From IMG/VR virus record IMGVR_UViG_3300031951_000213, positions 1 to 54,403 of that record: a DNA stretch of 54,403 nucleotides. One strand, given 5' to 3'. A program made the position numbers and the translations under genes. The stretch is from a virus. Below, in pieces: positions 5,019 to 50,312 of the stretch (positions are counted from its first letter, which is position 1; every line of letters starts with the position of its first letter). The notes beneath the pieces are model-generated. The model saw only the letters and a program-made list of their open reading frames with translations, was not told where the DNA came from and searched no databases.

Positions 5019-5046
5019 ATTGTAGCCCAAAGAAACAACTTGTCAA
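5019..5046 (-). promoter_or_regulatory. TTGACA-16-TACAAT promoter, 6 bases from the start codon
   Basis: On the minus strand TTGACA (5046-5041), a 16-base spacer and TACAAT (5024-5019) form a near-consensus sigma-70 promoter. The predicted transcription start coincides with ATG 5012, so the replication mRNA should be leaderless. The TGA stop of the upstream gene lies inside the TTGACA box. Confidence 0.75.
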
Positions 5047-6107
5047 GGATTATTTATATCCCAATCTACCATTTCCCAGATAATGTCTTCCAGTGTTTTT
5101 TCTGGTTTCCAACCCAACTCTTTTCTGATTTTGTTTGAATTGCCGAATAAAAAATCCACGTCACTTGGCCGAAAAAACTTTTGGTCGATAGAGACTAGAA
5201 CGATTTTTTTCTTTGTAGCCAAACCGTTCTCATCCGTGAGAATGTATTCCTCATCTAACGGTTCTCCTGTCAAGTTATGCCAGCAACCTTTGATTCCAGC
5301 GGCAAAAAACGCTTTTTCAACAAATTCTCGAATAGAGTGAGTGTCATTTTCAGAGATAACGTAGGGTTTCGGCGGCGATTCTTGATTCGCTACTAACCAA
5401 AGAGCCTTGGCAACATCTGCCGCGTGTTGCCAAGAGCGGTAGCTGTTCAAATTACCTAGCTTGATTGGCTCAAAATCCTTACTGTCTTTTAGGGAGTGGT
5501 AAATGCGGGCTACCCCCTTTGTGATTTTGCGAGTAACATACTTTTCTCCACGAAGTTTAGATTCAAAATTGAATGTCCAAGGTTGGACGGCATAAAGTCC
5601 GTAACTTTCCCTATAAATGTCAGTCATATAGCGAGCATAGCTTTTGCTGGCGGCATAAGGCGATTTGGGCGAAATAATTGTTGATTCGTCTTGGGATTTT
5701 TGGCCATCTTTTAGGGTGCAACCTAATTCTTCGCTAGTCCCAAGGTTTACAAAGCGACACTTCGGGCAGTATTTTCTAACTGCTTCAAGCAGTTTAGCAA
5801 CGCCAAGTCCGTTCGTAATCAAATGCGATTCAAAAACCGACCAACTTTCCCCAACGTAGGCGTTCGCTCCAGTGTTGAAAATATAGTCTGGCTTATGTTT
5901 TTCAATTACTGAATCAATAGATGCGCCATCTGTCAAGTCAAGAAGTTCCGTGATTACCTTGCTATCGTCAAAAATAAATTCCTGCTTGTCGTAACTTTTG
6001 TGACGAATGGTGGCCAAGATTTCAAAACTCGGATGCTCGTCTTGAAAGAACTTAATGAGATGTTGACCTAACTGCCCGTTTTTACCTGTAATTAAAACCT
6101 TAGTCAT
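5043..6107 (-). CDS. GDP-mannose 4,6-dehydratase-like NAD(P)-dependent epimerase/dehydratase
   Basis: 354-residue extended short-chain dehydrogenase. Seen: the Rossmann motif TGKNGQLG at the N-terminus, LGTSEELG with the catalytic Ser/Glu region, SPYAASKSYARY with the YxxxK pair, and a C-terminal FFRPSDVDFLFGNSNKIRKE plus LGW signature typical of GDP-mannose 4,6-dehydratases, which convert GDP-mannose to GDP-4-keto-6-deoxymannose. I chose ATG 6107 because the upstream FkbM gene ends at 6122. No following epimerase/reductase (GMER) gene is visible, so the sugar made may be different or finished by the host. A related sugar dehydratase is the alternative. Confidence 0.85.
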   Translation of the reverse strand: MTKVLITGKNGQLGQHLIKFFQDEHPSFEILATIRHKSYDKQEFIFDDSKVITELLDLTDGASIDSVIEKHKPDYIFNTGANAYVGESWSVFESHLITNGLGVAKLLEAVRKYCPKCRFVNLGTSEELGCTLKDGQKSQDESTIISPKSPYAASKSYARYMTDIYRESYGLYAVQPWTFNFESKLRGEKYVTRKITKGVARIYHSLKDSKDFEPIKLGNLNSYRSWQHAADVAKALWLVANQESPPKPYVISENDTHSIREFVEKAFFAAGIKGCWHNLTGEPLDEEYILTDENGLATKKKIVLVSIDQKFFRPSDVDFLFGNSNKIRKELGWKPEKTLEDIIWEMVDWDINNP

Positions 6108-6121
6108 AAAACATAATAACA

Positions 6122-6748
6122 TCAACTCCTGACATATAACGCATCTCCCCAAGGATGATTCTCCCAAAATACTGTTTCGGCCCGAATAAATCCTAGTGGC
6201 GCGAGATATTCATCAATTTGATCAACCAAAGCACAACCCTTGTAAACTTCGCGGCTATTGATTTCTGTGTAGATAAACTGAACACTGGCTAGTTCTTTAA
6301 ACCCTTTTAGGGCCAAAAGTTCGGCTCCTTGAATATCGAGATTGAGGAGGTCGATTTTCGGACTCTCAACTTCGGCCAAAATTGAGGAAATGGTTTTAGT
6401 TTGCCGCTTCTCCGCACTCGTGTAAACTACATCTGGAAACAGGGATGAATGTTCACCTAGCTCCAAAATAGACGATGACTGGTTATTATTGGAGGTGTGG
6501 AATGTAACGGTGTCTTCGTCACGTTCGCCAACAACTTCGCAGAAAACCTTGTTTGATGGATTTTTGCAAACATGTTCAGCCAATTTTAAATCGTAGGCAA
6601 GCGATTTATTAGCCTCGACCCAATAAATGGTATCCGCTCCAAGACTTTTGTATAAAGGATATTCTTCTGCCCTATGTGCCCCGACATGTAAAATTGCCTT
6701 GGGATAAATTCCGTATTTTTCGCGAAGTTGTAGTAAGTCAATTAACAT
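6122..6748 (-). CDS. FkbM-family methyltransferase
   Basis: 208-residue SAM-dependent methyltransferase of the FkbM family, members of which O-methylate sugars in polysaccharides. Seen: AILHVGAHRAEE (SAM-binding motif I region), WVEANKSL, LLNLDIQGAELLALKG, and IYTEINSREVYKG with a GFIRAE end, all typical of FkbM proteins. It overlaps the GT11-like transferase upstream by 11 bases and is followed by the sugar dehydratase, which suggests methylation of a phage-directed glycan. Confidence 0.88.
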   Translation of the reverse strand: MLIDLLQLREKYGIYPKAILHVGAHRAEEYPLYKSLGADTIYWVEANKSLAYDLKLAEHVCKNPSNKVFCEVVGERDEDTVTFHTSNNNQSSSILELGEHSSLFPDVVYTSAEKRQTKTISSILAEVESPKIDLLNLDIQGAELLALKGFKELASVQFIYTEINSREVYKGCALVDQIDEYLAPLGFIRAETVFWENHPWGDALYVRS

Positions 6749-7367
6749 GGTGCCAGTTTAAAAGTGAACAGGTTGGTGGGAAAATATCGCCATGCCATTT
6801 GGGAAAGTTTAAGGGATTGGGGCAAATTACCTCTTTCTGGTTGCCAAGAAATCCTATCCACCACGAAAACGTTCCTAGAGACAAGACCTTCTTTGAAAAC
6901 GCGGCCCCAAACTTGATTGTATTTTCGGGCGAATCTTGATAAGGTTCTAGGTTAAATTCGGCGCAAAGTTCTTTAATGATTGGATCGTCGGGCGAATCTG
7001 AGGAAACGTATCCTCCGTTTGATCCATCCAAGGCTTTTTTATAATAATCGGCGGAAGCGAATCGGTTTCCAGATTGAGAATGGCTCTCAAGAAGGTCGCC
7101 AAGTCTAACGTGAACGAAAGCTCCTTCTCTTTCTTGAATTGGCGAAAACTGCAACCTTTTGAATTCAAAAACCGCCGAAGATGTTTGAAAAAATCCGTTA
7201 ATAGAAACATCGTCTCCGCCGTTTTCTTCAAAAACGTTTTTATGAGGAAGGATAGACTGCTCCAAGGGATTCTCAATATTCAGCCCAAGTTTATCCGCAA
7301 CGACTTTGGCCGCTGCAAATTGAAACAAATTGTTGCCAAATCGGCCCTGATAGTTGATTCTAACCAC
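6738..7367 (-). CDS. GT11-like alpha-1,2-fucosyltransferase
   Basis: 209 residues. The start MVRINYQGRFGNNLFQFAAA and later FVHVRLGDL (HxRxGD nucleotide-sugar motif) and LSLGTFSWWIGFLG are hallmarks of family 11 fucosyltransferases, which use GDP-fucose. It is shorter than bacterial homologues of about 290 residues, mostly because the middle is reduced. Its neighbour at 5043 is a GDP-mannose dehydratase-like enzyme, the first step to GDP-fucose, so the two may act in one pathway. Use of a different GDP-sugar is possible. Confidence 0.8.
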   Translation of the reverse strand: MVRINYQGRFGNNLFQFAAAKVVADKLGLNIENPLEQSILPHKNVFEENGGDDVSINGFFQTSSAVFEFKRLQFSPIQEREGAFVHVRLGDLLESHSQSGNRFASADYYKKALDGSNGGYVSSDSPDDPIIKELCAEFNLEPYQDSPENTIKFGAAFSKKVLSLGTFSWWIGFLGNQKEVICPNPLNFPKWHGDIFPPTCSLLNWHHVN

Positions 7368-8118
7368 AAATCTTTTCCCTCCAATAGCTCATATAAAGAG
7401 CGTCGGTTGAACAGTTTTCTGGAATTTTTAGCTCTAAGTTATTCCAATCCGTTACTTGAATAACGGGAATGTTCCACTCGTCATACATAAAATGCTTGTC
7501 CACAATAGGGATTGACCCTACAAGCAAGGCTTCCCATGTTCTGTGACAGTCAATACCATTACCACGAGGAGAGGCGACGTATTTTCGGCGGGCCAAATCT
7601 TTAAAATATTCACTGTAAGGTTTTGGTCCAGAGAATTCGGCTTTAGGGTTTTCTCCTAGAATTTCTCTCTTAGTTTGACGGTCATGGTGAGTGTCAGCAA
7701 AGTTAATGTAAATTGCCCCGCTTTTCGTGTATTCTGCCAAGTCGTCCAACTCGTTTTCAATAAACGATTGGTCAATACATGTTCCTTTGCTTGGGCCGCA
7801 GTGATTTTCAATTCCAATAGGGATAGGAACTAAGTCTGGATGTTGGCAGTCGGCATTTTGGGCGAACCATTTTTTGATGCATTTTGGGCGGCTGTTGAAA
7901 AGTGTTTCTGTGATTGGGTAATCTGATAGGTGAGAGATTAGCGTTAGCGAACCATCGAAATCGGCCAATTCAGAAAACAAGACGTTCAAAAGGTCGGTTT
8001 TACAGAAGACGATTTTGGCCCTATCAAAGTTGCGAGCTTGACCAACTGTGTCAACGTCAATGATTAAATCAGCAAGGCTCTTAAAGTTTTCGCCGTTGAC
8101 AATTTCTGATACTTTCAT
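7360..8118 (-). CDS. Exostosin-like (GT47-type) glycosyltransferase
   Basis: 252 residues. The C-terminal half has RRKYVASPRGNGIDCHRTWE followed by ALLVGSIPIV, the signature of the exostosin-like nucleotide-sugar binding half. The N-terminal half contains VPIPIGIENH and a SHLSDYPITE segment. The donor and acceptor sugars cannot be read from the sequence. It overlaps the GT11-like gene downstream by eight bases and shares a base with the kinase gene upstream, so it is in one transcription unit. Confidence 0.72.
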   Translation of the reverse strand: MKVSEIVNGENFKSLADLIIDVDTVGQARNFDRAKIVFCKTDLLNVLFSELADFDGSLTLISHLSDYPITETLFNSRPKCIKKWFAQNADCQHPDLVPIPIGIENHCGPSKGTCIDQSFIENELDDLAEYTKSGAIYINFADTHHDRQTKREILGENPKAEFSGPKPYSEYFKDLARRKYVASPRGNGIDCHRTWEALLVGSIPIVDKHFMYDEWNIPVIQVTDWNNLELKIPENCSTDALYMSYWREKICG

Positions 8119-8846
8119 TAACTAACTCCACGATGTTTTACTGTTTCTGATGCTATTGAATTAGCAAAGTGGATTGCGTAATCAATATCTTGTTTCGCCG
8201 AAAAAGAAAGGATTAGTGCGGCAAAAAATGAATCCCCCGCGCCCGAAACATCTTTTACTTCGACTTTGTTGACAGGATATTGTTTTCCGCCGAAATGGCA
8301 GCCATTTTCGCCCGCTGTATGGATGATTTTTGACTGGAGTTCGGGCGTCAAGTAAGGCTTAGAGTTCTGATATTCAAAGTCGTTAATTTTGATGAATTTA
8401 GCGGATCGGGCGAAGTCTTTTACTGGTTTCTTTGTGTCAATAAAGACGTTTGGATGGTTTTTGCAGATTTTTTCAATCGTTTCCTCCGATAAGAAACCTT
8501 TGTTGTAATCGGAAATGGCGATGATTTCGTATTCGTTTAGCTCTTTTAGGTCGATTTCAACTGGCTCAAAAGAGTGCGGCGAATCTACGCGAAGGAAATG
8601 ATGGTTGCTTTTTTCGTCAACAAATCGTGTTTTTGTAACGTTTTGCCAGTTATCATTTGTCAGAAGAGCGGCGCAATCTGGTTCAAGTTTTTGAAGCAGT
8701 CGAAAAACATTTGCTGCCATTCCTGGGTTTTCTGTTTGTCGAACAACATTAAGAACTGGAACGGGAACGTCTGGTGCCAGACGTTTAGCGTCACAGTAAA
8801 CAAAAACGTCTTTACAAGATTCGCCGATAACTAAAATTTTACCCAT
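8118..8846 (-). CDS. PfkB-family sugar kinase, HldE/RfaE kinase-domain-like
   Basis: 242 residues. Seen: an N-terminal GESCKDVFVYCDAKRLAPDVPVP-type segment like HldE, NPGMAANV, KTRFVDEKSNHHFLRVD (the KTR...LRVD stretch of heptose-phosphate kinases), AISDYNKGFL, and the C-terminal DVSGAGDSFFAAL with the GAGD anion hole and catalytic Asp. HldE phosphorylates C1 of D-glycero-D-manno-heptose 7-phosphate. This one is about 70 residues shorter than the usual 310 and lacks the nucleotidyltransferase domain. It sits beside a thiamine-diphosphate enzyme, so the two may make a sugar precursor; the actual substrate is unknown. Confidence 0.85.
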   Translation of the reverse strand: MGKILVIGESCKDVFVYCDAKRLAPDVPVPVLNVVRQTENPGMAANVFRLLQKLEPDCAALLTNDNWQNVTKTRFVDEKSNHHFLRVDSPHSFEPVEIDLKELNEYEIIAISDYNKGFLSEETIEKICKNHPNVFIDTKKPVKDFARSAKFIKINDFEYQNSKPYLTPELQSKIIHTAGENGCHFGGKQYPVNKVEVKDVSGAGDSFFAALILSFSAKQDIDYAIHFANSIASETVKHRGVS

Positions 8847-8847
8847 A

Positions 8848-10035
8848 TTAAAAGAGAGATTTCTTTTCTACAATCATTGTTGGGCGAGAAGATTTTGCGG
8901 CCCATTGGTAAGCGTCGATTAGTTCTTTACCGTTTTCTGGAACTAGAACGGGGAAGCTTACAAGTTTCTCGAAAACTTCTGTAAAATCCTGCGAATGTGT
9001 CGGACCAGAATAGAACGGGCCGCTGTCTGCTACAACTGTTTTCAAAACAACGGGACATTGGTATTCGCCGTGGCTGGTTCGTTCAATGTGATTAAGGTGA
9101 TTACCAATAGCGTCTGCCGCAACAAGCATAAAGTCGTGCCGCTCAAAATACACGACTGGACGATACCCTTCAAACGACATTCCAATACCCAAGCCAACCA
9201 TGAGGTTTTCGGCTACTGGGGTTTCAATCTTCAACTCATCTGGGACGTTTTTGAGGGTGCCCATAGCATTACCGTTCTTAACGTTGTAGCCAATAAAGAC
9301 AGCGTTGTTTTCTACCATGTGCTCCATAGAAGCGTTAGCGGCGGCTTTATAAGATATTTCTCCCTCATCTGGCCAATCTAAAGAATCCAAAAGTTCTTCT
9401 TTTAATCTTGGAAAACACTCGTCATCTGTAAATTTCTTTTGGCGCGAAATGTCAATCATGTCCGTGGTTCGCGCATGTGGCCAAGTAATCCTATATTCAT
9501 ATCGGCGGACACAAGATGGAAATTGAGGTTTTGTGGCTTTGCCCCATCGTTCTTCTTTAGTTGTCTCCACGGAACGATTATTGTCTTCAATAATGAATGT
9601 GCATGGCAATTCGTGACCTTCAACATATCGGGCCGCTTCCCAAAGATGGCCAGTATCTTCAATTCCATCACCAACAAAACACCAGACTTTTTGCTTGGAA
9701 CCTTTACGTTTCAGCGCCAAAGCAATGCCCGCCGCAATAGCTGGAGTCCCTCCGATAATTGCAGAGGTAAAGAAATTGCGCTTACGGTCAAAAATAAACA
9801 TCGAGCGGCCATTCAGGATGCGCTCTTTTAGAGTTTCGGGCGGAATTCCGTGAAGAAGAGCGTGATAATGGTTGCGATGAGTAGAAAGAACGTAATCGCC
9901 TTCTTTGATTTCTTTGAAAATTTCAATCAACTGGTCCTCGTTTCCGCCCGAAAGGTGAAAAAGGAATGGAAGTTTACAATCGCGATACAAATCGGCGATT
10001 TCGTTTTCAAAGTTGATTAGTTCTTGTTTAGTCAT
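8848..10035 (-). CDS. Compact fused E1-alpha/E1-beta thiamine-diphosphate enzyme
   Basis: 395 residues combining both halves of a 2-oxoacid dehydrogenase E1-type enzyme. N-terminal half: STHRNHYHALLHGIPPE (E1-alpha His region) near residue 50, and the ThDP/Mg motif GDG-x27-NN starting VGDGIEDTGHLWEAA near residue 135. C-terminal half: E1-beta-like TPVAENLMVGLGIGMSFEGYRP with the cofactor-activating Glu, then FERHDFMLVAADAIGNHLNH. Normal E1-alpha plus E1-beta total about 650 residues; here the transketolase C-terminal domain appears to be missing. In a sugar operon next to a kinase and a dehydrogenase, transketolase-like chemistry on a sugar is more likely than pyruvate metabolism, but that is inference. 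Confidence 0.82.
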   Translation of the reverse strand: MTKQELINFENEIADLYRDCKLPFLFHLSGGNEDQLIEIFKEIKEGDYVLSTHRNHYHALLHGIPPETLKERILNGRSMFIFDRKRNFFTSAIIGGTPAIAAGIALALKRKGSKQKVWCFVGDGIEDTGHLWEAARYVEGHELPCTFIIEDNNRSVETTKEERWGKATKPQFPSCVRRYEYRITWPHARTTDMIDISRQKKFTDDECFPRLKEELLDSLDWPDEGEISYKAAANASMEHMVENNAVFIGYNVKNGNAMGTLKNVPDELKIETPVAENLMVGLGIGMSFEGYRPVVYFERHDFMLVAADAIGNHLNHIERTSHGEYQCPVVLKTVVADSGPFYSGPTHSQDFTEVFEKLVSFPVLVPENGKELIDAYQWAAKSSRPTMIVEKKSLF

Positions 10036-11026
10036 TGTGAAGGATGATTCGTCCGCAGTTTCCGTCTTTTAACATATTAACGGCAGAGTTAATTTCTCTC
10101 ATGGGAAAGACGTTTGTTACGATGTTTTTGAACTTTAGCTTACCACTAACAAACATAGAAGCGTAGCGGGGAATATCAACGGTTGGATTTGTTTTGCCTC
10201 CTTGAGTGGCAATGATGCGCTTGCCCTTGGCTCCAAAAAGGCTAGAATCTACTGCAAAAGGTGACTTTGGCTGTCCAACCATTACGAATCGGCCATTGTC
10301 GGCCAAAAGTTTTAGCGAGTCTTCAATAAGTTCTGCGTGGCCAGTTGTGTCGAAGATAACGTCAAACTTGTTTTCGAGCAGGAAATTCTTTTCTTTTAGA
10401 TTGATGAACCTTGTCGCGCCATTGAATATGGCCAGTTTTTCTTTATCTTTAATGTCTGCGACGACAATATCGTTCGCTCCCACAAGATTCAACCCTTGGA
10501 TTAGGTTGAGTCCCAATCCGCCGCAACCCAAGACTAGGGCATTTTCGCCGATTTTAACTTCCGCCTCATTGTTGATTGCGCCCAAAGCTGTTGTCATACC
10601 GCAGCCTAAAAGAGAGCACAGTTCATTTGGCACGGCGTAACCAACTGGCGTCAACCGATTTTCCGAACAAATAGAGTATTCGCCAATCGTTGTAACTTTG
10701 CCGCTAGAGATTTTCTTGCCGCGAAAAATGTATTCAGGAAACGCTGAATCTATGCCTGATCCAACCATCCAATGCATTACAACCTTTTGGCCAATTTGAA
10801 GAGAAACACCTTCTCCAATTCCCTCCACAATCCCGCATCCTTCGTGACCCATTAAATGAGGCAGGAATTTTGCATTACCCTTTAGCCCAGCAATTTCCAT
10901 TAGCTGAGCGCCGCAAAGTCCACTGGTTAAGATTTTTACCTTGACTTGGCCAGCTTTAAGAGGCGTTAGTTCTACGTCTTCCCAAGATAGAGGTTGATTG
11001 AGGCTTGTCAATACGGCGGATTTCAC
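10028..11026 (-). CDS. Zinc-type medium-chain alcohol/polyol dehydrogenase
   Basis: 332-residue MDR-family oxidoreductase. Seen: SGLCGAQLMEIAG with the first catalytic Zn ligand Cys near residue 38, LMGHEGCGIVEGIGEGV (the GHE motif), and the Rossmann loop LVLGCGGLGLNLIQG near residue 170 followed by VVADIKDKEK. The four-Cys structural zinc loop of classical alcohol dehydrogenases is absent. It overlaps the thiamine-diphosphate enzyme gene by eight bases. A step in making an unusual sugar or alcohol is inferred from the operon; the substrate is not readable. Confidence 0.87.
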   Translation of the reverse strand: MKSAVLTSLNQPLSWEDVELTPLKAGQVKVKILTSGLCGAQLMEIAGLKGNAKFLPHLMGHEGCGIVEGIGEGVSLQIGQKVVMHWMVGSGIDSAFPEYIFRGKKISSGKVTTIGEYSICSENRLTPVGYAVPNELCSLLGCGMTTALGAINNEAEVKIGENALVLGCGGLGLNLIQGLNLVGANDIVVADIKDKEKLAIFNGATRFINLKEKNFLLENKFDVIFDTTGHAELIEDSLKLLADNGRFVMVGQPKSPFAVDSSLFGAKGKRIIATQGGKTNPTVDIPRYASMFVSGKLKFKNIVTNVFPMREINSAVNMLKDGNCGRIILHND

Positions 11027-11739
11027 AGGATGATCCAGTTTTTCTTTAATGTTGGTAATTGCCAGTCGGGATTTTGGCGGGAATAGCGATGGATGTAAAG
11101 TGGAACGTTTGTCTCCACTGAATCTAGCAAAAACATGAACGACGAATCAATAACGTGAATTTCCTCGGCCAATTCAGCAACTCCAAGCCAGTCAATCATT
11201 GTGAATCCTTGAATCGGGCGGAGTTTTACTATTGGCAAATTGATTTTGTTACGGTCAATAACATACCCGCGAGACTCGTCTTCGTGTAAGAGGGCGAATT
11301 TTTCGGGAAGATTTAGGCCGTAGATTAGGCTGTTTTCTTTTTTCTTGTGGCGGTTAATTTTGAAAGAAGTCCAGCGTTTTTCAAAGGGAACTCCCGCGAG
11401 GCGATAAAATTGCTGATCGAAAGCATCGTGTTGATTTAAGTCATGAAAACCAATTTTAATACAATCAGATCGAATCATTTTATGAGATTGAAATCTTATT
11501 TTATTGTTTTTTATTTTAAAATTGTTAACCTCTTCATCGTCCTTCACTCCAATTAGTTGGAGATTTGTGTCTTCATACATTTGGGCTACGGTTTCAAGAT
11601 TATGATGCTTTACAAAAAGATGTGTAGCTCCATCATCTTTAATCCACTCTCTTACCAAGCCATTGCATATAATGTGGTCGCCCAACCCTAAGTGATGGTA
11701 GAGATAAAGGTCGTGAAGATATGGGCAAAGATCATTCAT
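11023..11739 (-). CDS. Putative GT9-like glycosyltransferase
   Basis: 238 residues. Starts MNDLCPYLHDLYLYHHLGLG followed by DHIICNGLVRE, resembling the N-terminal GxGD segment of heptosyltransferase-like (GT9/GT-B) enzymes. Later LPEKFALLHEDESRG and MIDWLGVAELAEEIHVIDSS fit the donor-binding half, where HVIDSS resembles the GT9 DSS/DTG motif. I chose ATG 11739 over the upstream in-frame start at 11787, which would overlap the previous gene by over 50 bases. It overlaps the next gene by four bases. Confidence 0.6.
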   Translation of the reverse strand: MNDLCPYLHDLYLYHHLGLGDHIICNGLVREWIKDDGATHLFVKHHNLETVAQMYEDTNLQLIGVKDDEEVNNFKIKNNKIRFQSHKMIRSDCIKIGFHDLNQHDAFDQQFYRLAGVPFEKRWTSFKINRHKKKENSLIYGLNLPEKFALLHEDESRGYVIDRNKINLPIVKLRPIQGFTMIDWLGVAELAEEIHVIDSSFMFLLDSVETNVPLYIHRYSRQNPDWQLPTLKKNWIIL

Positions 11740-12376
11740 ACGCCAAAAGTTCCAAATGATGAGGGTCAACGCGGTTAAACTCGTCAAACACTTGGCCCAC
11801 GAACCGATCTTTTTCTCGCGGGAGAGGGAAATTGTCCTTATGATGATAAGCTACTGAATGCTTATAAAAAGGCAAAATTACATCCCGCAAAAAGTCTTGA
11901 TCGTAGTGGTAGTATTCCTTGTTTTCGTAGTCTTTGACGAGGGACAGAAAATCAAACGGCGCGGGATTTCTAAATCCACTCATCCCAGCCAATAATGGAT
12001 AGCTAAAATGACAAGGATGATCTTTCATTGTATGACACAAGAGGCCACTATCCAACCACTGTTCCACGGCGGAAACTTCACGCATAGAAAAGCGAGAATC
12101 ACAATCGCGGGAAATAAAATACTCCACATTTTCGTCAGCAAACGGTAAAAAGCGCGTTAACGAAAACGTCCAATCGGCTGGTCCGTCAAGTATTTTTACT
12201 CTTGTTCCGCCGAAACCTCTCAATTTATTTGGAACGTCTTCTGGAACGTCTTTATGAACGTAAAAGATGCATTCCCAATCGGGGTAAAAGTCCGCCCTTT
12301 GCATGGCGTTTTCAAGAGCGCCGATTGTGTATTTGGGGTTGTCTCCCCAGAGGGAGAAAGAGATTAGTTTACTCAT
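11732..12376 (-). CDS. GT-A-fold glycosyltransferase-like protein
   Basis: 214 residues. MSKLISFSLWGDNPKYTIGA, followed by YPDWECIFYVHKDVPE and FISRDCDSRFSMREVSAVEQW. The DCD triad is a plausible metal-binding DxD of a GT-A glycosyltransferase. The C-terminal YYHYDQDFLRDVI also fits known phage and giant-virus proteins of this type. Donor and acceptor are unknown. It overlaps the upstream methyltransferase gene by eight bases. Confidence 0.68.
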   Translation of the reverse strand: MSKLISFSLWGDNPKYTIGALENAMQRADFYPDWECIFYVHKDVPEDVPNKLRGFGGTRVKILDGPADWTFSLTRFLPFADENVEYFISRDCDSRFSMREVSAVEQWLDSGLLCHTMKDHPCHFSYPLLAGMSGFRNPAPFDFLSLVKDYENKEYYHYDQDFLRDVILPFYKHSVAYHHKDNFPLPREKDRFVGQVFDEFNRVDPHHLELLAYE

Positions 12377-12947
12377 TGGTAATCAACTTTTCTTTTCGCA
12401 AAAATAAGCCTGTTCCGTCGCCAGTGTTGAATCCGAAGTAAGCGTATTCACTGCTTGTAACAAGGTTGTATCCGTAGTCATCAAATCCATTTGTGTCATG
12501 GACTAATACAAAGCGCGGCTTATATTGCAAGACAAAATTCACAATCTCGCCGCGAAGATAAACGCCCGCGTCAACAAAGAATCCGTCGTATTCATCGTAG
12601 CCAACGATGTTTTTTGATTTTTCTAGAATTTCTAGAAGTAGTTTGTCGGGTCGTTCAGCTTGAAAGTTGTTGCCGCGATGGTTTGGTTGGGCTGACTTGG
12701 TGAATTCGTCATGTGCGGCGAAAAGTTCTGGCGCGTCAATGTATTTTGCGCGGTAGTTTTTATAGTCCTTTAATTGGCTAACGGTTTTGTCGAACCACTC
12801 ACGGTCATTCAAGATTTCGAGTGAGAATACTTCTCCGAAGTTGTCAACCAGCGCTTTTGTGCCAGCGCCGATTCCAAATTCTAAAATACTTTTTTCTTTT
12901 TTGTCTTGAATAATTTCAAGAACGGGAATCCAATCTGTATAGGCCAT
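12369..12947 (-). CDS. Class I SAM-dependent methyltransferase-like protein
   Basis: 192 residues. Motif I is EKSILEFGIGAGTKALVDNF near residue 20, followed by FSLEILNDREW (post-I acidic) and YDGFFVDAGVYLRGEIVNF with VLVHDTNGFDDYGY, as in small methyltransferases of sugar clusters. The substrate is unknown; a sugar or sugar-linked acceptor is inferred from the operon. The start is one base downstream of the GT2 stop. Confidence 0.75.
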   Translation of the reverse strand: MAYTDWIPVLEIIQDKKEKSILEFGIGAGTKALVDNFGEVFSLEILNDREWFDKTVSQLKDYKNYRAKYIDAPELFAAHDEFTKSAQPNHRGNNFQAERPDKLLLEILEKSKNIVGYDEYDGFFVDAGVYLRGEIVNFVLQYKPRFVLVHDTNGFDDYGYNLVTSSEYAYFGFNTGDGTGLFLRKEKLITNE

Positions 12948-12948
12948 G

Positions 12949-13665
12949 TTATTTCAGTAGGTGTTTGTATTTTTCTTTGATTTTTGCGCCTTCGATCATG
13001 TTGGAGCTTTGGCTGTTGGTGGAGAGGCCGTTTGGGTTGTAATAGTAGAGGCCCACTGTTTCGTAGAGTTTTTGAAACTTTGCGCCGCCTTCTAAGCAGC
13101 GCATCCAAAAATCGAAATCGGCGGCTGTTGGATAAGTAATATCAAACAAGCCAAAACGCTGGTGCAAGGATTTTCGCCACATTGGCATACAGTGCGGAGA
13201 ATTGTTTTCCATCATACTTTCGGCGGAAACATCGTAACAGGGATAAAGGTCGTAAATGTTAGCCTCGTCAAACTTTTCGTTAGCCTTGTAGCTCCATGCA
13301 ACGTGTCCGTAGCAAACATCTGTTTCAGGGTTGTTTTCCATGAAACTGAGTTGTGTTTGTAGTGAATTGAATTTGCGCCGATCATCAGCATTCCAGTTTG
13401 TGATGATTGGAGCATCAGCCAAAGCAATGCCGCGATTCCATGTTTCGTAAATGCTTAGTTTGTCGCGGAGCATCACATAGTCAAGACTTGGGTGATTGTA
13501 AGAGTGGATAATGCTGGCGGTCTTATCTGTGCTCTGCGCATCCATTAGGAGGATTTGCATATGGTCTAGGCCGTCTTGCTCCATTACGTTGTCCATAAAA
13601 CCACGAATAAATTTCTCGGCGTTATAGAGGGAAACGATTACTGAGAGTCGGGGGTTGTCAATCAT
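12949..13665 (-). CDS. Family 2 glycosyltransferase
   Basis: 238-residue GT-A glycosyltransferase of family 2. Seen: LSVIVSLYNAEKFIRGFMDN at the start, LLMDAQSTDKTASII (nucleotide-sugar binding Asp), SIYETWNRGIALADAP, NWNADDRR (DxD-like motif) and a C-terminal AADFDFWMRCLEGGAKF with the ED/xFW-type acceptor region. It transfers a sugar from a nucleotide-sugar to a glycan; specificity is unknown. It overlaps the YopX-like gene by four bases. Confidence 0.92.
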   Translation of the reverse strand: MIDNPRLSVIVSLYNAEKFIRGFMDNVMEQDGLDHMQILLMDAQSTDKTASIIHSYNHPSLDYVMLRDKLSIYETWNRGIALADAPIITNWNADDRRKFNSLQTQLSFMENNPETDVCYGHVAWSYKANEKFDEANIYDLYPCYDVSAESMMENNSPHCMPMWRKSLHQRFGLFDITYPTAADFDFWMRCLEGGAKFQKLYETVGLYYYNPNGLSTNSQSSNMIEGAKIKEKYKHLLK

Positions 13666-14099
13666 GACAAAAGTTCAGGGTTTTTGTGGACGTTGCCAAG
13701 AACTTCATTAAAGATGGGAATTAGTTTTGCATTTTGCCCCTCCACCGTTCTCATTGTAATCATCGGCAATGCCACGTTTTTACTCAAAAGTCTAAATGAT
13801 GCGGAATGGGGGCAATAAAAGACTTTAGCTGCCTGATATTCTGGATAAATTACAGAAACAATGTCGCCCTCATAAATTTCCCTGCCTTCTGAATCAAGGA
13901 GGCCAGTAAATTGTTCGAGAACATATCTGTTCAACCCTCCGTCCTCTTGGACTGTCTGAGGAATTGGGTATGGTCCTTGTTTTGTCATAAAGCACAGGTC
14001 GGTAGATTCTGTGTTCAGAATCAAACACATTGCGTTCTTAATTGGGAACCATTCCTTTTTTTGTTTATCCCAAACTCGAAATTTAATGGGCCGACTCAC
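13662..14099 (-). CDS. YopX-family protein
   Basis: 145 residues matching the YopX family of phage and prophage proteins: RPIKFRVWDKQKKEWF at the start, LEQFTGLLDSEGREIYEGDIV in the middle and EVLGNVHKNPELL at the end. The biochemical function of YopX proteins is unknown. Its position between two glycosyltransferases with four-base overlaps on both sides is unusual, because YopX genes normally sit in early regions. Confidence 0.88.
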   Translation of the reverse strand: MSRPIKFRVWDKQKKEWFPIKNAMCLILNTESTDLCFMTKQGPYPIPQTVQEDGGLNRYVLEQFTGLLDSEGREIYEGDIVSVIYPEYQAAKVFYCPHSASFRLLSKNVALPMITMRTVEGQNAKLIPIFNEVLGNVHKNPELLS

Positions 14100-19412: not shown

Positions 19413-21662
19413 TTAAATGCTGCAAGCTCCGCTAGAGCAGGAATCTTCTGCCATGCTTTGTTTGTCTCCGTCATCTGTGTTTAGATAGTAGCCAGCTCTC
19501 CAGCCCATTTTATAGGCGTGAAGAAATTCCTTAATCACTTTTGAGTCTGGCAGCGCTCCGCCTTCGTAATGAGAGTAATTGTAATATCGGTTTGCCGAAA
19601 TGGCCATGTCTGTCCACTTTTGTAATGCAGCAACAATATTAATCATTCCAATGTTGTCTTTCATATCAAAAGCAAGGGTATATTTGTTTTTGAGATGGGT
19701 GACTTGTGGAGCTACAACTGGTAGCTGTCTTGATTTGGACTTCTTGTAGGTGATGAGAGAGCGAATCGGCTCAATACCGTTTGTGGAATTTTGAATCACA
19801 GAACTACTTTCGCATGGCATTAGAGCGGAAAGGGTGCAATGACGCAATCCATATTTTTTAATATCTTCGCGGAGTTCTTCCCATGGCATTTCTGGTTTCC
19901 GCGTAACGATGGCATCTACGTCTTTTTTGTATGTGTCGATTGGTAGTATTCCTTTAGAGTATTTACTTGTCTCAAATTTCTCGCATGGGCCTTTTTCCTT
20001 AGCAAGCTCATTTGAAGATTTAAGAAGAAAGAATTGTGTTTTCTCCATTAGTTCGTCGGCGATATTCGGGGCATTTGGATCGTCGTATTTTACTCCATGT
20101 TTCGCTAGATAAGCGGCAAAATTAGTAATACCAACCCCAAGAGAGCGCCTTTTCTTTGCAAAGTTTTCCGCCGCTGGAGCAAAGTAGTTTTGATAGTCAA
20201 TTTGCTCGTCTAGACCGCGAACAATAATGTCACAAGTTTTTTCGAGTTCTGTATCTGAATGAATCTCTAAAACATTAATCGCCGAAAGAACGCAAATGCC
20301 AATTTCGCCGTCTGGATCATTAATATTCTTCAATGGTTTAACTGGCTGACATACCTCCAGGCAAAGGTTGTTCATCCGAACAGTATCGGCCCATGCTCCA
20401 CGTTCATTGATATGATCAATATTTGAGAAGTAAATTCTTCCAGTTTCAACGCTTTCTTTCGTGAAGAGGCTCATTAATTGGGCCGCTGGGATTTTTTTCT
20501 TTTGCTTAATTTTGTTGGATTTTTCGTATTTCTCGTAAAGAGCGTCAAATTCTGTAGTTCCGAATGCTTCGGCCATGTCTTTTACTTCGTGAGGCGAAAA
20601 AAGCGTAATTTCTCCCCCTTTTAGGAATCTTTCATAGAAGATTTTTGAAAATTGAATAACGTAATCCAGCTTTCTTACTCGATTATCATCTGTTCCAGCA
20701 TTGTTCTTTAATTGAATAATATCTTCGATTTCATAATGCCAGAATGGGAAATTAACTGTTGCCCCTCCGCCACGAATTCCATTTTGATGACAGGATTTGA
20801 CTGTTGATTCAAAAACCTTTAGAAATGGAATAACGCCCGTATGAATAACGTCTCCGTTTCTAATTTCCGCGCCGATTGCTCGCAACGACGAGCCGTTCAA
20901 TCCAATACCGAACCTTTGTGAAGTTGCAAATCCAACCGCAGTATTTGCGGCGAAAATAGATTCAATGCTATCTCCAATATCAATCAAACAGCAAGAAGCG
21001 TATTGGCGCAACTTGGTTCTAATTCCAGCCATTTGCGGCGTAGGAAGATTGGATTTGTGTTTTGAATATGAATCGTATGCTCTTTTAACATATTGAAGAC
21101 GATTCTGGGGATTATATTTTGCAAAAAGCGTCATTGCCACAAGCATATAAGCGAATTGCGGCGTCTCAAAGATTTGACCCGTTTTCCTGTTTTGAACAAG
21201 ATATTTATCGCAAAGCTGTTGAATTCCAGCGTAGGTGAAAATATCGTCTCTAGAGTGGTCGAGATAGTCTCCTAGCTTATTGATTTCTGATTCAGAATAA
21301 ACTTTTAGCGTTTCATCTTCGTAAACGCCAAGATCAACATTTTTCTTGATAAAATCGAGAAGTTTTGGCGGATTTTTGCCGCCCCAGACTTCTTTTCTTA
21401 GTTGGTAGTTGAGAAGTCTTGCCGCTACATATTGGTAGTTGGGAGATTTTAGAGAAATCAAGCTTACTGCCGAATCAATAATTACCTGATGAATGTCTTT
21501 TGTAGTCATTCCATCATGATATTGGAGTTTGGCATTAATGCAAACCGCGTTCGAGTAAACCCCGCTCAAACCCTCTGTCGCCCAATTAACTACTTTTTCA
21601 ATTTTTTCAACCGAAAAGTCTTCCTTCTCGCCGTTCCTCTTTGTTACCTTGTATTTATCCAT
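19413..21662 (-). CDS. nrdA: Ribonucleoside-diphosphate reductase alpha subunit, class Ia
   Basis: 749-residue catalytic subunit reducing NDPs to dNDPs. Order: N-terminal ATP-cone (KYKVTKRNGEKEDFSVEKIE), ASCCLIDIGDS with the first redox Cys, GGATVNFPFWHYEIED, the thiyl-radical loop NNLCLEVCQP with Asn, Cys and Glu, GICVLSAIN with the second redox Cys, ALMPCESSSVIQNSTNGIEP, and a C-terminal swinging CSSGAC pair (C-x4-C). Length matches E. coli NrdA. The presence of an ATP cone suggests allosteric activity control. nrdB follows immediately. Paired dyad operators lie 120-170 bases upstream. Confidence 0.97.
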   Translation of the reverse strand: MDKYKVTKRNGEKEDFSVEKIEKVVNWATEGLSGVYSNAVCINAKLQYHDGMTTKDIHQVIIDSAVSLISLKSPNYQYVAARLLNYQLRKEVWGGKNPPKLLDFIKKNVDLGVYEDETLKVYSESEINKLGDYLDHSRDDIFTYAGIQQLCDKYLVQNRKTGQIFETPQFAYMLVAMTLFAKYNPQNRLQYVKRAYDSYSKHKSNLPTPQMAGIRTKLRQYASCCLIDIGDSIESIFAANTAVGFATSQRFGIGLNGSSLRAIGAEIRNGDVIHTGVIPFLKVFESTVKSCHQNGIRGGGATVNFPFWHYEIEDIIQLKNNAGTDDNRVRKLDYVIQFSKIFYERFLKGGEITLFSPHEVKDMAEAFGTTEFDALYEKYEKSNKIKQKKKIPAAQLMSLFTKESVETGRIYFSNIDHINERGAWADTVRMNNLCLEVCQPVKPLKNINDPDGEIGICVLSAINVLEIHSDTELEKTCDIIVRGLDEQIDYQNYFAPAAENFAKKRRSLGVGITNFAAYLAKHGVKYDDPNAPNIADELMEKTQFFLLKSSNELAKEKGPCEKFETSKYSKGILPIDTYKKDVDAIVTRKPEMPWEELREDIKKYGLRHCTLSALMPCESSSVIQNSTNGIEPIRSLITYKKSKSRQLPVVAPQVTHLKNKYTLAFDMKDNIGMINIVAALQKWTDMAISANRYYNYSHYEGGALPDSKVIKEFLHAYKMGWRAGYYLNTDDGDKQSMAEDSCSSGACSI

Positions 21663-21669
21663 AGATCAT

Positions 21670-21698
21670 ATATTACCACCGAATCTAGAGCTTGTCTA
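21670..21698 (-). promoter_or_regulatory. TAGACA-17-TAATAT promoter of nrdA
   Basis: Minus strand: TAGACA (21698-21693), a 17-base spacer, TAATAT (21675-21670), then seven bases to the nrdA ATG. The predicted start of transcription coincides with the start codon. Confidence 0.6.
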
Positions 21699-21783
21699 GT
21701 TCTTTTTGCATCTTTTTTCAAGCGGCCAAAGCTTCGGCCAAAAACTGTGAATCCTATCAAAAATGAGAACATTCTCAAAAAAG

Positions 21784-21833
21784 AATGGATAAAAAGTGTC
21801 CACGATTTGTTAAAAATGGACAAAAAGTGTCCA
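21784..21833. repeat. Two 19-bp dyad repeats spaced 31 bp, upstream of nrdA
   Basis: AATGGATAAAAAGTGTCCA (21784-21802) and AATGGACAAAAAGTGTCCA (21815-21833) differ at one base and have a period of 31 bp, about three helical turns. The second contains the perfect dyad TGGACA-N5-TGTCCA; the first has one mismatch in the left arm. This layout is like an operator for two dimers on one DNA face. Paired NrdR boxes before ribonucleotide reductase genes have the same spacing, though the sequence is not the usual NrdR consensus. Confidence 0.6.
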
Positions 21834-21891
21834 TACCCTAAGATTTTTGAAGATTTTTTCGGGAATTTTGGAAAGGTTTGGGCTGTTTTGC

Positions 21892-21899
21892 TGTAATAT
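21892..21899 (+). promoter_or_regulatory. Possible promoter of the structured RNA segment
   Basis: TGTAATAT on the plus strand, containing both TGTAAT and TAATAT as seen at other starts. TTGGAA lies 16 bases upstream of TGTAAT as a weak -35. The expected start is near 21903, where the hairpin-rich segment begins. Weak evidence. Confidence 0.35.
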
Positions 21900-21902
21900 G
21901 GG

Positions 21903-22345
21903 GAAACCATAAAAGGAAGGGGCGGTCGTTTTCAGCCGCTAGGCCATTATAAGTTGGGAGCTTGCGACCATAAGCGAAGCGCTAAAGCCTCTCGTAGATT
22001 CTACACACGCAAATAAAAAACCTCCCGTTGAGGCAGCGAGAAGCGTTTTCTTCCCACAACATATGAAAATGAGAGCCTTGAGAATCTTGGGGCGAATGAG
22101 AAACCTCTCGGCGAGAAGACGATACAAGATTATCAAGCACAGGGGAGTTTGAGGGGGATGTGAATCTCCCTCATTCAAAGGTTGGAGTGAGGAACGAACG
22201 GAAACCGATAACTGAGTGAACGAAGTGAACGTAATGTACTGGTGTAGAGTACACTTAGGTATATCGTACAGCGAGAAGTCTTTTCGCCGCAAACGCTCAC
22301 TGCCTGCTCCGCAGGCTTACTACAAAAAGGTAAGAGTCTTAGTTT
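21903..22345 (+). ncRNA. Candidate structured RNA in the divergent nrdA / MazG region
   Basis: This stretch has no convincing gene and is unusually rich in local hairpins when read on the plus strand. Examples: a 10-bp stem TGAGGGGGAT/ATCTCCCTCA closed by a GTGA (GNRA) tetraloop at about 22150-22173; GCCTGC-TCC-GCAGGC at about 22302-22316; GCGAGAA-GTC-TTTTCGC near 22271-22287; CTGAGTG pairing with CACTTAG around an inner GTACT/AGTAC stem (22212-22258); and AGCG-AAG-CGCT near 21973. The GNRA loop favours the plus strand. I cannot match it to a named family; large phage RNAs such as ROOL or GOLLD should be tested. Confidence 0.4.
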
Positions 22346-22381
22346 TTCCGCCGAAAAATGTTTTGCGCCGAAAGAAAAGAT

Positions 22382-22409
22382 TTGACAAGTTTCGCGAGTG
22401 TGCTACGTT
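22382..22409 (+). promoter_or_regulatory. TTGACA-16-TACGTT promoter of the MazG-like gene
   Basis: TTGACA at 22382-22387, a 16-base spacer, TACGTT at 22404-22409, then eight bases to ATG 22418. A GTTAGTAG box overlaps the -10 at 22407-22414, so two box types may coincide here. Confidence 0.65.
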
Positions 22410-22417
22410 AGTAGTGT

Positions 22418-22768
22418 ATGAACCTAAACGATTACCGCGATCAATGTCACGCCGCGAACCAAAAATGGTGGACGGACATTCACACTGGATTTCCCATCTC
22501 TAGAAACAAAGGAGAGCTTCTAATGCTCGTCGTTTCTGAAATTGCCGAAGCTATGGAGGGAGAGCGCAAAGATTTGATGGACGACAAGATTCCCTCCCGA
22601 AAAATGGCGGAAGTTGAAATTGTTGACGCGCTAATTCGTCTATTCGATTACGCAGGAGGATTTGGATACGACCTTCAAGGAGCGTTTGAAGATAAGATGA
22701 AGTTTAACGCCACTCGCAAAGACCATTCTCACGAAGCTAGAAAACAGGAGGGCGGCAAAAAGTTCTGA
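22418..22768 (+). CDS. MazG-like nucleotide pyrophosphohydrolase
   Basis: 116 residues of the all-alpha NTP pyrophosphatase type. Seen: NKGELLMLVVSEIAEAMEGE, the ExxE half of the metal site, then MAEVEIVDALIRLFDYAGGF, the ExxD half. These enzymes hydrolyse (d)NTPs to (d)NMPs and PPi, and in phages may adjust nucleotide pools or alarmone levels. It leads the plus-strand nucleotide operon, diverging from nrdA. Exact substrate unknown. Confidence 0.85.
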   Translation: MNLNDYRDQCHAANQKWWTDIHTGFPISRNKGELLMLVVSEIAEAMEGERKDLMDDKIPSRKMAEVEIVDALIRLFDYAGGFGYDLQGAFEDKMKFNATRKDHSHEARKQEGGKKF

Positions 22769-49112: not shown

Positions 49113-50312
49113 GTGAATCATCGCGGTTATAAATTTCGTATCTATCCAGCGCCAGAACAAGAGGCTGTTCTACGCAAAACAATTGGATCGTGCAGATTTG
49201 TCTATAATTGGGCGCTAGCACAGAGAAGAGAGGCGTGGGTTAAAGAGAAGAAATCCATAAACTACGCCAAATCGTGCAAGGCGTTGACGGAGTTAAAAGG
49301 CTCTCCCGAAAAGGCTTGGCTTAATGAAGTGTCGAGCGTTTGCTTGCAGCAAAGTTTGAATAATTTAGATGTTGCGTTCGGCAATTTCTTCAAGAAACGC
49401 GCCGCGTATCCCTCGTTTAAAGCTCGCAAAAATGGCGGTTCTGCGCGGTTCACAGATAACGCTTTCCGCCTAAAAGGCGACTATCTTTTTCTCGCGAAGA
49501 TTAAAACACCCTTTAAAGTCGTTTGGTCGCGCCCGCTTTCCAATATCCCAAATTCAGTAACCGTTTCTCAAAATGCTAGCGGTCAATGGTTTGCCTCATT
49601 CCTATGCGAGGAGGAAATTGCCAAACTTCCGCCTTCCGACAAACGAATCGGTATCGACGCTGGTATTGAAAACTTCGCAACTCTCTCAGACGGGCGAAAA
49701 TTTCAATCTCCGAAAGCGATTCGTAAATTGCGCAAGAAACTAGCACGCCTGCAAAGGCGTCACTCTCGCAAAAAGAAAGGTTCTAAAAACCGTGAACGCG
49801 CCCGCAAAAAAGTTGCCCGTGTTCACCAGCGCATCGCAGATGTGCGCAAAGATTTCCTCCACAAATTGTCAACTCAACTCGTTCGCGAAAACCAAGCGAT
49901 TGCTTTGGAAGACTTGTCTGTGTCAAGTATGGTCAAGAACCGCAAACTTTCTCGCGTAATTAGCGAGCAAGGCTGGCGCGAATTCAGAACTATACTTGAA
50001 TACAAGTGCGAGTGGTATGGGCGAGAACTACTAATCGTAGATCGTTGGTTCCCAAGTAGCAAAACCTGCTCATGTTGTGGAGCGAAGGCTAGCTTTGGCC
50101 TAGAAATAAGGCAATGGACGTGTGGCGCTTGCGGCGCAAGCCACGACAGAGACGTGAACGCCGCGAAAAACATTTTGGCCGCTGGACAAGCGGTGTCAGA
50201 CTGTGGAGTGGACGGAAGACCAACGAAGAACTACGTTCTTCGGGGCAGGACACAACGAAGCAGTAAAACGAAAGCGCGAGCATCGAAAACAACATCTCTT
50301 AAAGATGAATAA
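49113..50312 (+). CDS. tnpB: TnpB, IS200/IS605-type RNA-guided nuclease
   Basis: 399 residues. An OrfB N-terminus (YKFRIYPAPEQEAVLRKTIG, SCRFVYNWAL) is followed by an RuvC nuclease with catalytic Asp182 (RIGIDAGIENF), Glu266 (IALEDLSV) and Asp347 (HDRDVNAAKN), and a Zn finger with Cys at 319, 322, 337 and 340. All catalytic residues are intact. No tnpA is beside it, and the stop overlaps the ATG of the next gene (50305), leaving no non-coding right end. Starts at GTG 49113. It looks captured or domesticated. Confidence 0.92.
   Translation: MNHRGYKFRIYPAPEQEAVLRKTIGSCRFVYNWALAQRREAWVKEKKSINYAKSCKALTELKGSPEKAWLNEVSSVCLQQSLNNLDVAFGNFFKKRAAYPSFKARKNGGSARFTDNAFRLKGDYLFLAKIKTPFKVVWSRPLSNIPNSVTVSQNASGQWFASFLCEEEIAKLPPSDKRIGIDAGIENFATLSDGRKFQSPKAIRKLRKKLARLQRRHSRKKKGSKNRERARKKVARVHQRIADVRKDFLHKLSTQLVRENQAIALEDLSVSSMVKNRKLSRVISEQGWREFRTILEYKCEWYGRELLIVDRWFPSSKTCSCCGAKASFGLEIRQWTCGACGASHDRDVNAAKNILAAGQAVSDCGVDGRPTKNYVLRGRTQRSSKTKARASKTTSLKDE

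Follow-up and report, generated by a model that had tools for sequence, protein, structure and literature searches.

ROOL and GOLLD, large structured RNAs of phages and, for GOLLD, of prophages too, are among the least understood RNAs, and assembly into an RNA-only multimeric cage is a feature of both families. For ROOL, a structured RNA of phages that stands alone, neither a function nor a protein partner is known, and GOLLD combines a conserved 3' part with a less conserved 5' part (PMC12286853). The window, the whole 54,403-nt stretch of viral DNA analysed here (IMG/VR record IMGVR_UViG_3300031951_000213), holds a candidate of the same broad sort at positions 21903-22345. Like GOLLD, it would be a phage-encoded structured RNA, the function being known for neither. 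The likeness is partial, as the core is 81-93% identical among copies and the 5' part ~60%, but the terminal 3' ~140 nt of this RNA are also variable (~60%). At ~350-445 nt it has at most about half the length of GOLLD, which is often >800 nt, and whereas GOLLD often lies near tRNA genes, nucleotide-metabolism genes adjoin here and ARAGORN found no tRNA or tmRNA in the 54-kb window. With ROOL (rumen-originating ornate large RNA) it would share the stand-alone state, predicted in our case; it differs in lacking any sequence or covariance match to ROOL, in being smaller (ROOL env-120 is 659 nt) and in not lying near a tRNA island. Leaders and riboswitches of nucleotide metabolism resemble it in their position upstream of such an operon, but here there was no Rfam riboswitch match, and the gene that follows, which varies between copies, is preceded by a candidate promoter of its own.

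Rfam 15 was searched at gathering and permissive thresholds with the window and two homologous copies, and no credible family match was obtained. The ROOL and GOLLD covariance models matched none of the three copies, GOLLD being absent even among the weak matches. Identity with GOLLD or ROOL was rejected on covariance model, size and tRNA neighbourhood, and identity as tmRNA or tRNA for want of an ARAGORN-recognisable structure. An earlier reading of the window from its letters (the sequence-only reading) had proposed an unexplained structured RNA distinct from ROOL and GOLLD, with an Rfam covariance search as one check; the proposal is supported by covariation and by the lack of an Rfam match in three copies. 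If true, such an RNA, smaller, with a compact core of 131 nt and linked with nucleotide metabolism in place of tRNA islands, would be an independent case.

The gap between nrdA and the MazG-like gene

The divergent nrdA (start at 21662, - strand) and MazG-like pyrophosphatase genes (start at 22418, + strand) are separated by 755 bp (21663-22417) without a credible ORF. Scored with a hexamer model for which the large genes of this phage were the training set, the ORFs of the gap came out as non-coding (-0.12 to -0.39, versus +0.20 for MazG), and no frame was conserved among the three homologous copies; a protein-coding reading of 21903-22345 was ruled out on these two results. The stretch had been singled out as gene-free and as unusual for the window, and both observations stood; such other apparent long gaps as were checked proved to be occupied by overlapping small ORFs. 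Its first base coincides almost exactly with the start expected from the upstream sequence TTGGAA-18-TGTAAT. When the 443 nt were folded alone, the energy gave z -1.29 against dinucleotide shuffles (10/100 as good; other strand z -0.97), so that by the energy criterion of the sequence-only reading itself the window sequence would have made a weak case.

Homologous copies and the covarying core

With the MazG protein of the window as query, 67 viral loci were found, among which only L001, on the 165-kb contig IMGVR_UViG_3300037541_000804, carried a non-coding stretch related to that of the window (70% identity over 415 aligned positions). A pattern scan located a second copy on this contig (L070). 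The two, designated copies A and B, lie at opposite ends of the contig, and each is followed by a paralogous or allelic set of small genes (for a 68-aa protein, a HAD-like protein and a dNMP kinase-like protein), the sets being 84-90% identical in DNA. Two diverged copies of one module, made up of the RNA and the genes for the 68-aa, HAD-like and kinase-like proteins, were thus observed at the ends of this relative (L089, 1-2260; L079, 1-3072). Copies A and B may represent a tandem duplication broken by assembly, or strain variants in a contig slightly longer than one genome round.

The covariance model matched only these three RNA copies among 79 sources, and the RNA was absent by covariance search from the 66 other viral loci with MazG homologues. 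BLASTN against 50,697 phages and 72,556 plasmids returned nothing beyond chance matches of 20-33 nt, two exact-pattern scans of 84,980 bacterial and archaeal genomes (GTDB) were empty, and exact-pattern scans of IMG/VR gave credible matches only on the one related contig. Nine further contigs from a 16-mer scan were dropped (0/9 matched the covariance model). As judged from these searches, the distribution is narrow, at two phages so far, and this limits the reach of the finding; narrow lineage-specific RNA families escape present libraries, as this RNA shows.

RNAalifold assigned 34 pairs to a 131-nt core (22077-22207), none of which was broken in the three sequences wherever letters were present. 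Five of the 34 pairs had changed on both sides and one further pair had changed via G-U. With shuffled partners the mean number of both-side changes was 1.6 and 0/500 shuffles reached 5; sliding the 3' partners by 1-3 columns left 0. Just three sequences were compared, and a single contig supplied two of these; the independent events are hence few. Against column shuffles, which kept the conservation pattern and not the dinucleotides, the consensus fold of the core had z -5.8 on the + strand (0/1000) and -4.8 on the - strand, with consensus energies of -39.8 versus -32.0 kcal/mol. The minimum-energy structure of the window sequence folded alone agreed with this consensus. The sequence-only reading had named homologue collection and covariation as tests, and they yielded two copies on one related IMG/VR contig and covarying pairs in the core.

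Compared across the three copies, the core is made up of a long helix with interruptions, followed by two hairpins, all on the + strand. In helix 1 (22077-22137), CTTGAGAATCTTG (22077-22089) pairs with CAAGATTATCAAG (22125-22137) and encloses the hairpin GAGA-AACC-TCTC (22098-22109); the two paired segments are invariant, and helix 1 therefore contributes no covariation. All five double changes are located in the two hairpins, 22150-22173 and 22180-22206. The first of these is helix 4, the GTGA-capped stem of 10 bp already recognised in the sequence-only reading, and the comparison bore it out: at two pairs both sides had changed in compensation, and one other pair showed a G-C/G-U change. The second consists of helices 5 and 6, GGTT/AACC (GTCT/AGAC and GGCT/AGCC in the relatives) and GT/AC (GC/GC), which surround a purine-rich 3x3 internal loop and have three pairs compensated on both sides. 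In identity the core (81-85%) is roughly on a par with the coding sequences around it (MazG 85%, next conserved gene 77%), and it is therefore under selection.

In the 5' part, the hairpin CGTT-GAGGC-AGCG (22026-22038, + strand) recurs in copy A, where the loop is the same and a single pair differs (G-U/A-U; z -2.9 in the pairwise alignment of window and copy A, 3/200 shuffles). Copy B has a large deletion by which much of the 5' part is lost, this part being otherwise 60% identical. For the terminal ~140 nt (22208-22350), a common fold of the three copies was unsupported (z -0.6) despite conserved sequence blocks, and a full 3' domain fold from RNAalifold is not claimed, as it was no better than shuffled columns. 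The hairpin CTTAC/GTAAG followed by a T-rich tract (22316-22347, + strand) is a weak candidate terminator whose structure was not significant and which a terminator scan did not pick up. The dense structure first described for the whole stretch was thus strongly upheld by comparison in the core (22077-22207) and weak by energy over the full 443 nt (z -1.29); of the at least ten local hairpins then counted, those of the core and one in the 5' part are conserved and the remainder are not.

The stretch very probably makes a folded RNA with an evolutionarily preserved shape. As far as comparison of the copies can tell, it is a selected, structured element of the + strand preceded by conserved promoter-like sequence. 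With covarying pairs and no conserved ORF, it falls within the general kind of phage-encoded structured non-coding RNA, and we conclude that it is a putative new member, narrowly distributed, in which the core is conserved and the 5' part variable. The predicted RNA spans 21903-22350 (+ strand, ~445 nt), its ends being taken from the promoter and the T-tract and the 3' end being uncertain; the predicted length in the relatives is ~350-395 nt.

Promoter-like, operator-like and downstream sequences

A sigma70-like promoter is found upstream in 3/3 copies (TTGGAA-18-TGTAAT in the window, TTGCAA-18-TGTAAT in copy A and TTGAAA-17-TGTAAC in copy B). In the window the -35 element occupies 21868-21873 and the -10 element 21892-21897, both on the + strand, and transcription would start near 21903-21905. 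The -10-like box noticed at first reading just before the stretch is thus kept, together with a -35 element, in all three copies.

Between the divergent RNR and RNA promoters (21765-21833, unstranded) lie three operator-like palindromes. These are GAGAACATTCTC (21765-21776) and, 31 bp apart, palindrome 1, TGGATAAAAAGTGTCCA (21786-21802), and palindrome 2, TGGACAAAAAGTGTCCA (21817-21833). The twin palindromes, TGGA[C/T]AAAAAGTGTCCA, and GAGAACATTCTC are common to the window and copy B, where this stretch is 88% identical over 106 bp; palindrome 2 is absent upstream of copy A, which has other palindromes in place of the twin pair. The twin palindromes look like operator DNA for a regulator, common to the RNA and the divergent RNR gene. 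Two sites so spaced ahead of nrd genes are reminiscent of NrdR boxes. The position of the RNA beside nucleotide-metabolism genes is kept in both phages and the adjacent RNRs are just 24-27% identical, a comparison which indicates that the neighbouring RNR was replaced while the RNA kept its place; it did so too in copy B, behind which another gene follows.

A conserved tail element, TTTTCCGCCGAAAAATGTTTTGCGCCGAAAGAAAA (22344-22378, + strand), lies between the RNA and the next gene. Elements resembling TTTTNCGCCGAAAGAAAA occur at 11 sites at ≤3 mismatches versus 1.3 expected (22344-22378 and ten weaker), and perfect copies were also seen behind copies A and B; several of the weak sites are inside genes, and codon usage may account for part of the excess.

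MazG is preceded by a candidate separate promoter, TTGACA-16-TACGTT (22382-22409, + strand), 8 nt before the ATG; in copy B TACGTT is kept and the -35 is not well kept. Only 7/33 phage genes had even a weak Shine-Dalgarno site. Five genes have the box TTANTATA at a distance of 12 or 13 nt from the start codon, on its upstream side (23699, 33823, 36100 and 38898 on the + strand, 15025 on the - strand); these boxes are candidate promoters, from which the mRNAs would be leaderless or almost so. The sequence before MazG fits the short-leader promoter type suggested for this phage and argues, short of proof, for the RNA and MazG being two transcription units.

Stand-alone RNA, operon leader or DNA element

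The reading ranked most likely is a stand-alone RNA, namely a phage structured non-coding RNA of the + strand with its own sigma70-like promoter at ~21903 and an end at ~22350, separate from the MazG gene; this reading we consider probable. The main rival is that the operon for nucleotide metabolism (MazG, small proteins, dNMP kinase) has here a long, structured 5' leader, which would act in cis by attenuation or ligand binding. In 3/3 copies the RNA lies directly upstream of the nucleotide-metabolism set on the same strand and at a similar distance from core to start codon (~175-211 nt), the conserved tail element spans the junction of RNA and gene, and the candidate 3' terminator is weak, all of which a leader would account for. 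We nevertheless regard a leader as unlikely, given the promoter-like TTGACA-16-TACGTT that lies 8 nt ahead of the MazG start codon, the phage genes mostly without Shine-Dalgarno sites and often with promoter-like boxes at -12/-13, the lack of a known riboswitch match and a first downstream gene in copy B that differs from those of the other copies.

It is improbable that the element acts at the DNA level, its inverted repeats working as DNA in a regulatory region or a replication origin, whether or not a primer transcript is made. The stretch does lie at a switch of transcription direction with operator-like palindromes nearby, and the hairpins pair on the - strand too, but the consensus fold is better on the + strand (-39.8 versus -32.0 kcal/mol), one core pair is kept only via G-U on that strand, the core has no iterons and the GC skew does not turn at this site. 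Hairpins that arose by chance in the ordinary intergenic DNA of a pair of related phages would suit the full-length z of just -1.3 and the two carriers, but are very improbable in view of compensatory changes with 0 broken pairs, a core consensus z of -5.8 and a core (81-85% identical) as conserved as coding sequence (77-85%).

A stand-alone RNA would be transcribed from the + strand, from the promoter near 21903 to an end near 22350 and apart from MazG, possibly early in infection together with the nucleotide-metabolism genes, and a repressor acting on the twin palindromes could control its transcription. In the core the purine-rich segments left unpaired hardly vary, whereas the 5' domain changes fast, and because of this the segments are guessed to be where a protein or ribonucleoprotein binds. 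The RNA would then act in trans, as scaffold or decoy, and the 5' part would be dispensable architecture; the whole of this proposal is a guess, and a doubtful one. An antisense role found no backing, as exact complementarity to the phage start-codon regions was no better than shuffled. More broadly, and tentatively, the RNA could represent an undescribed family of stand-alone phage RNAs that act in trans when the phage takes over the nucleotide metabolism of its host; the core would be fixed and bind an RNP, the 5' domain would be free to evolve, and the RNA would have held its place through the RNR swap.

Elsewhere in the phage genome, a full-length TnpB is encoded at 49113-50312 (+ strand; OrfB_IS605 with a Cas12f1-like TNB domain), 52% identical to relatives carried on plasmids. 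On the idea of an omega-type guide RNA, the window was searched with the RNA as query, and no second copy was found near TnpB. About ten genes annotated by eye as glycosyltransferase-, NAD-sugar- and transketolase-like follow one another in series at 5043-14099, and the phage with this run also has lambda-like tail genes.
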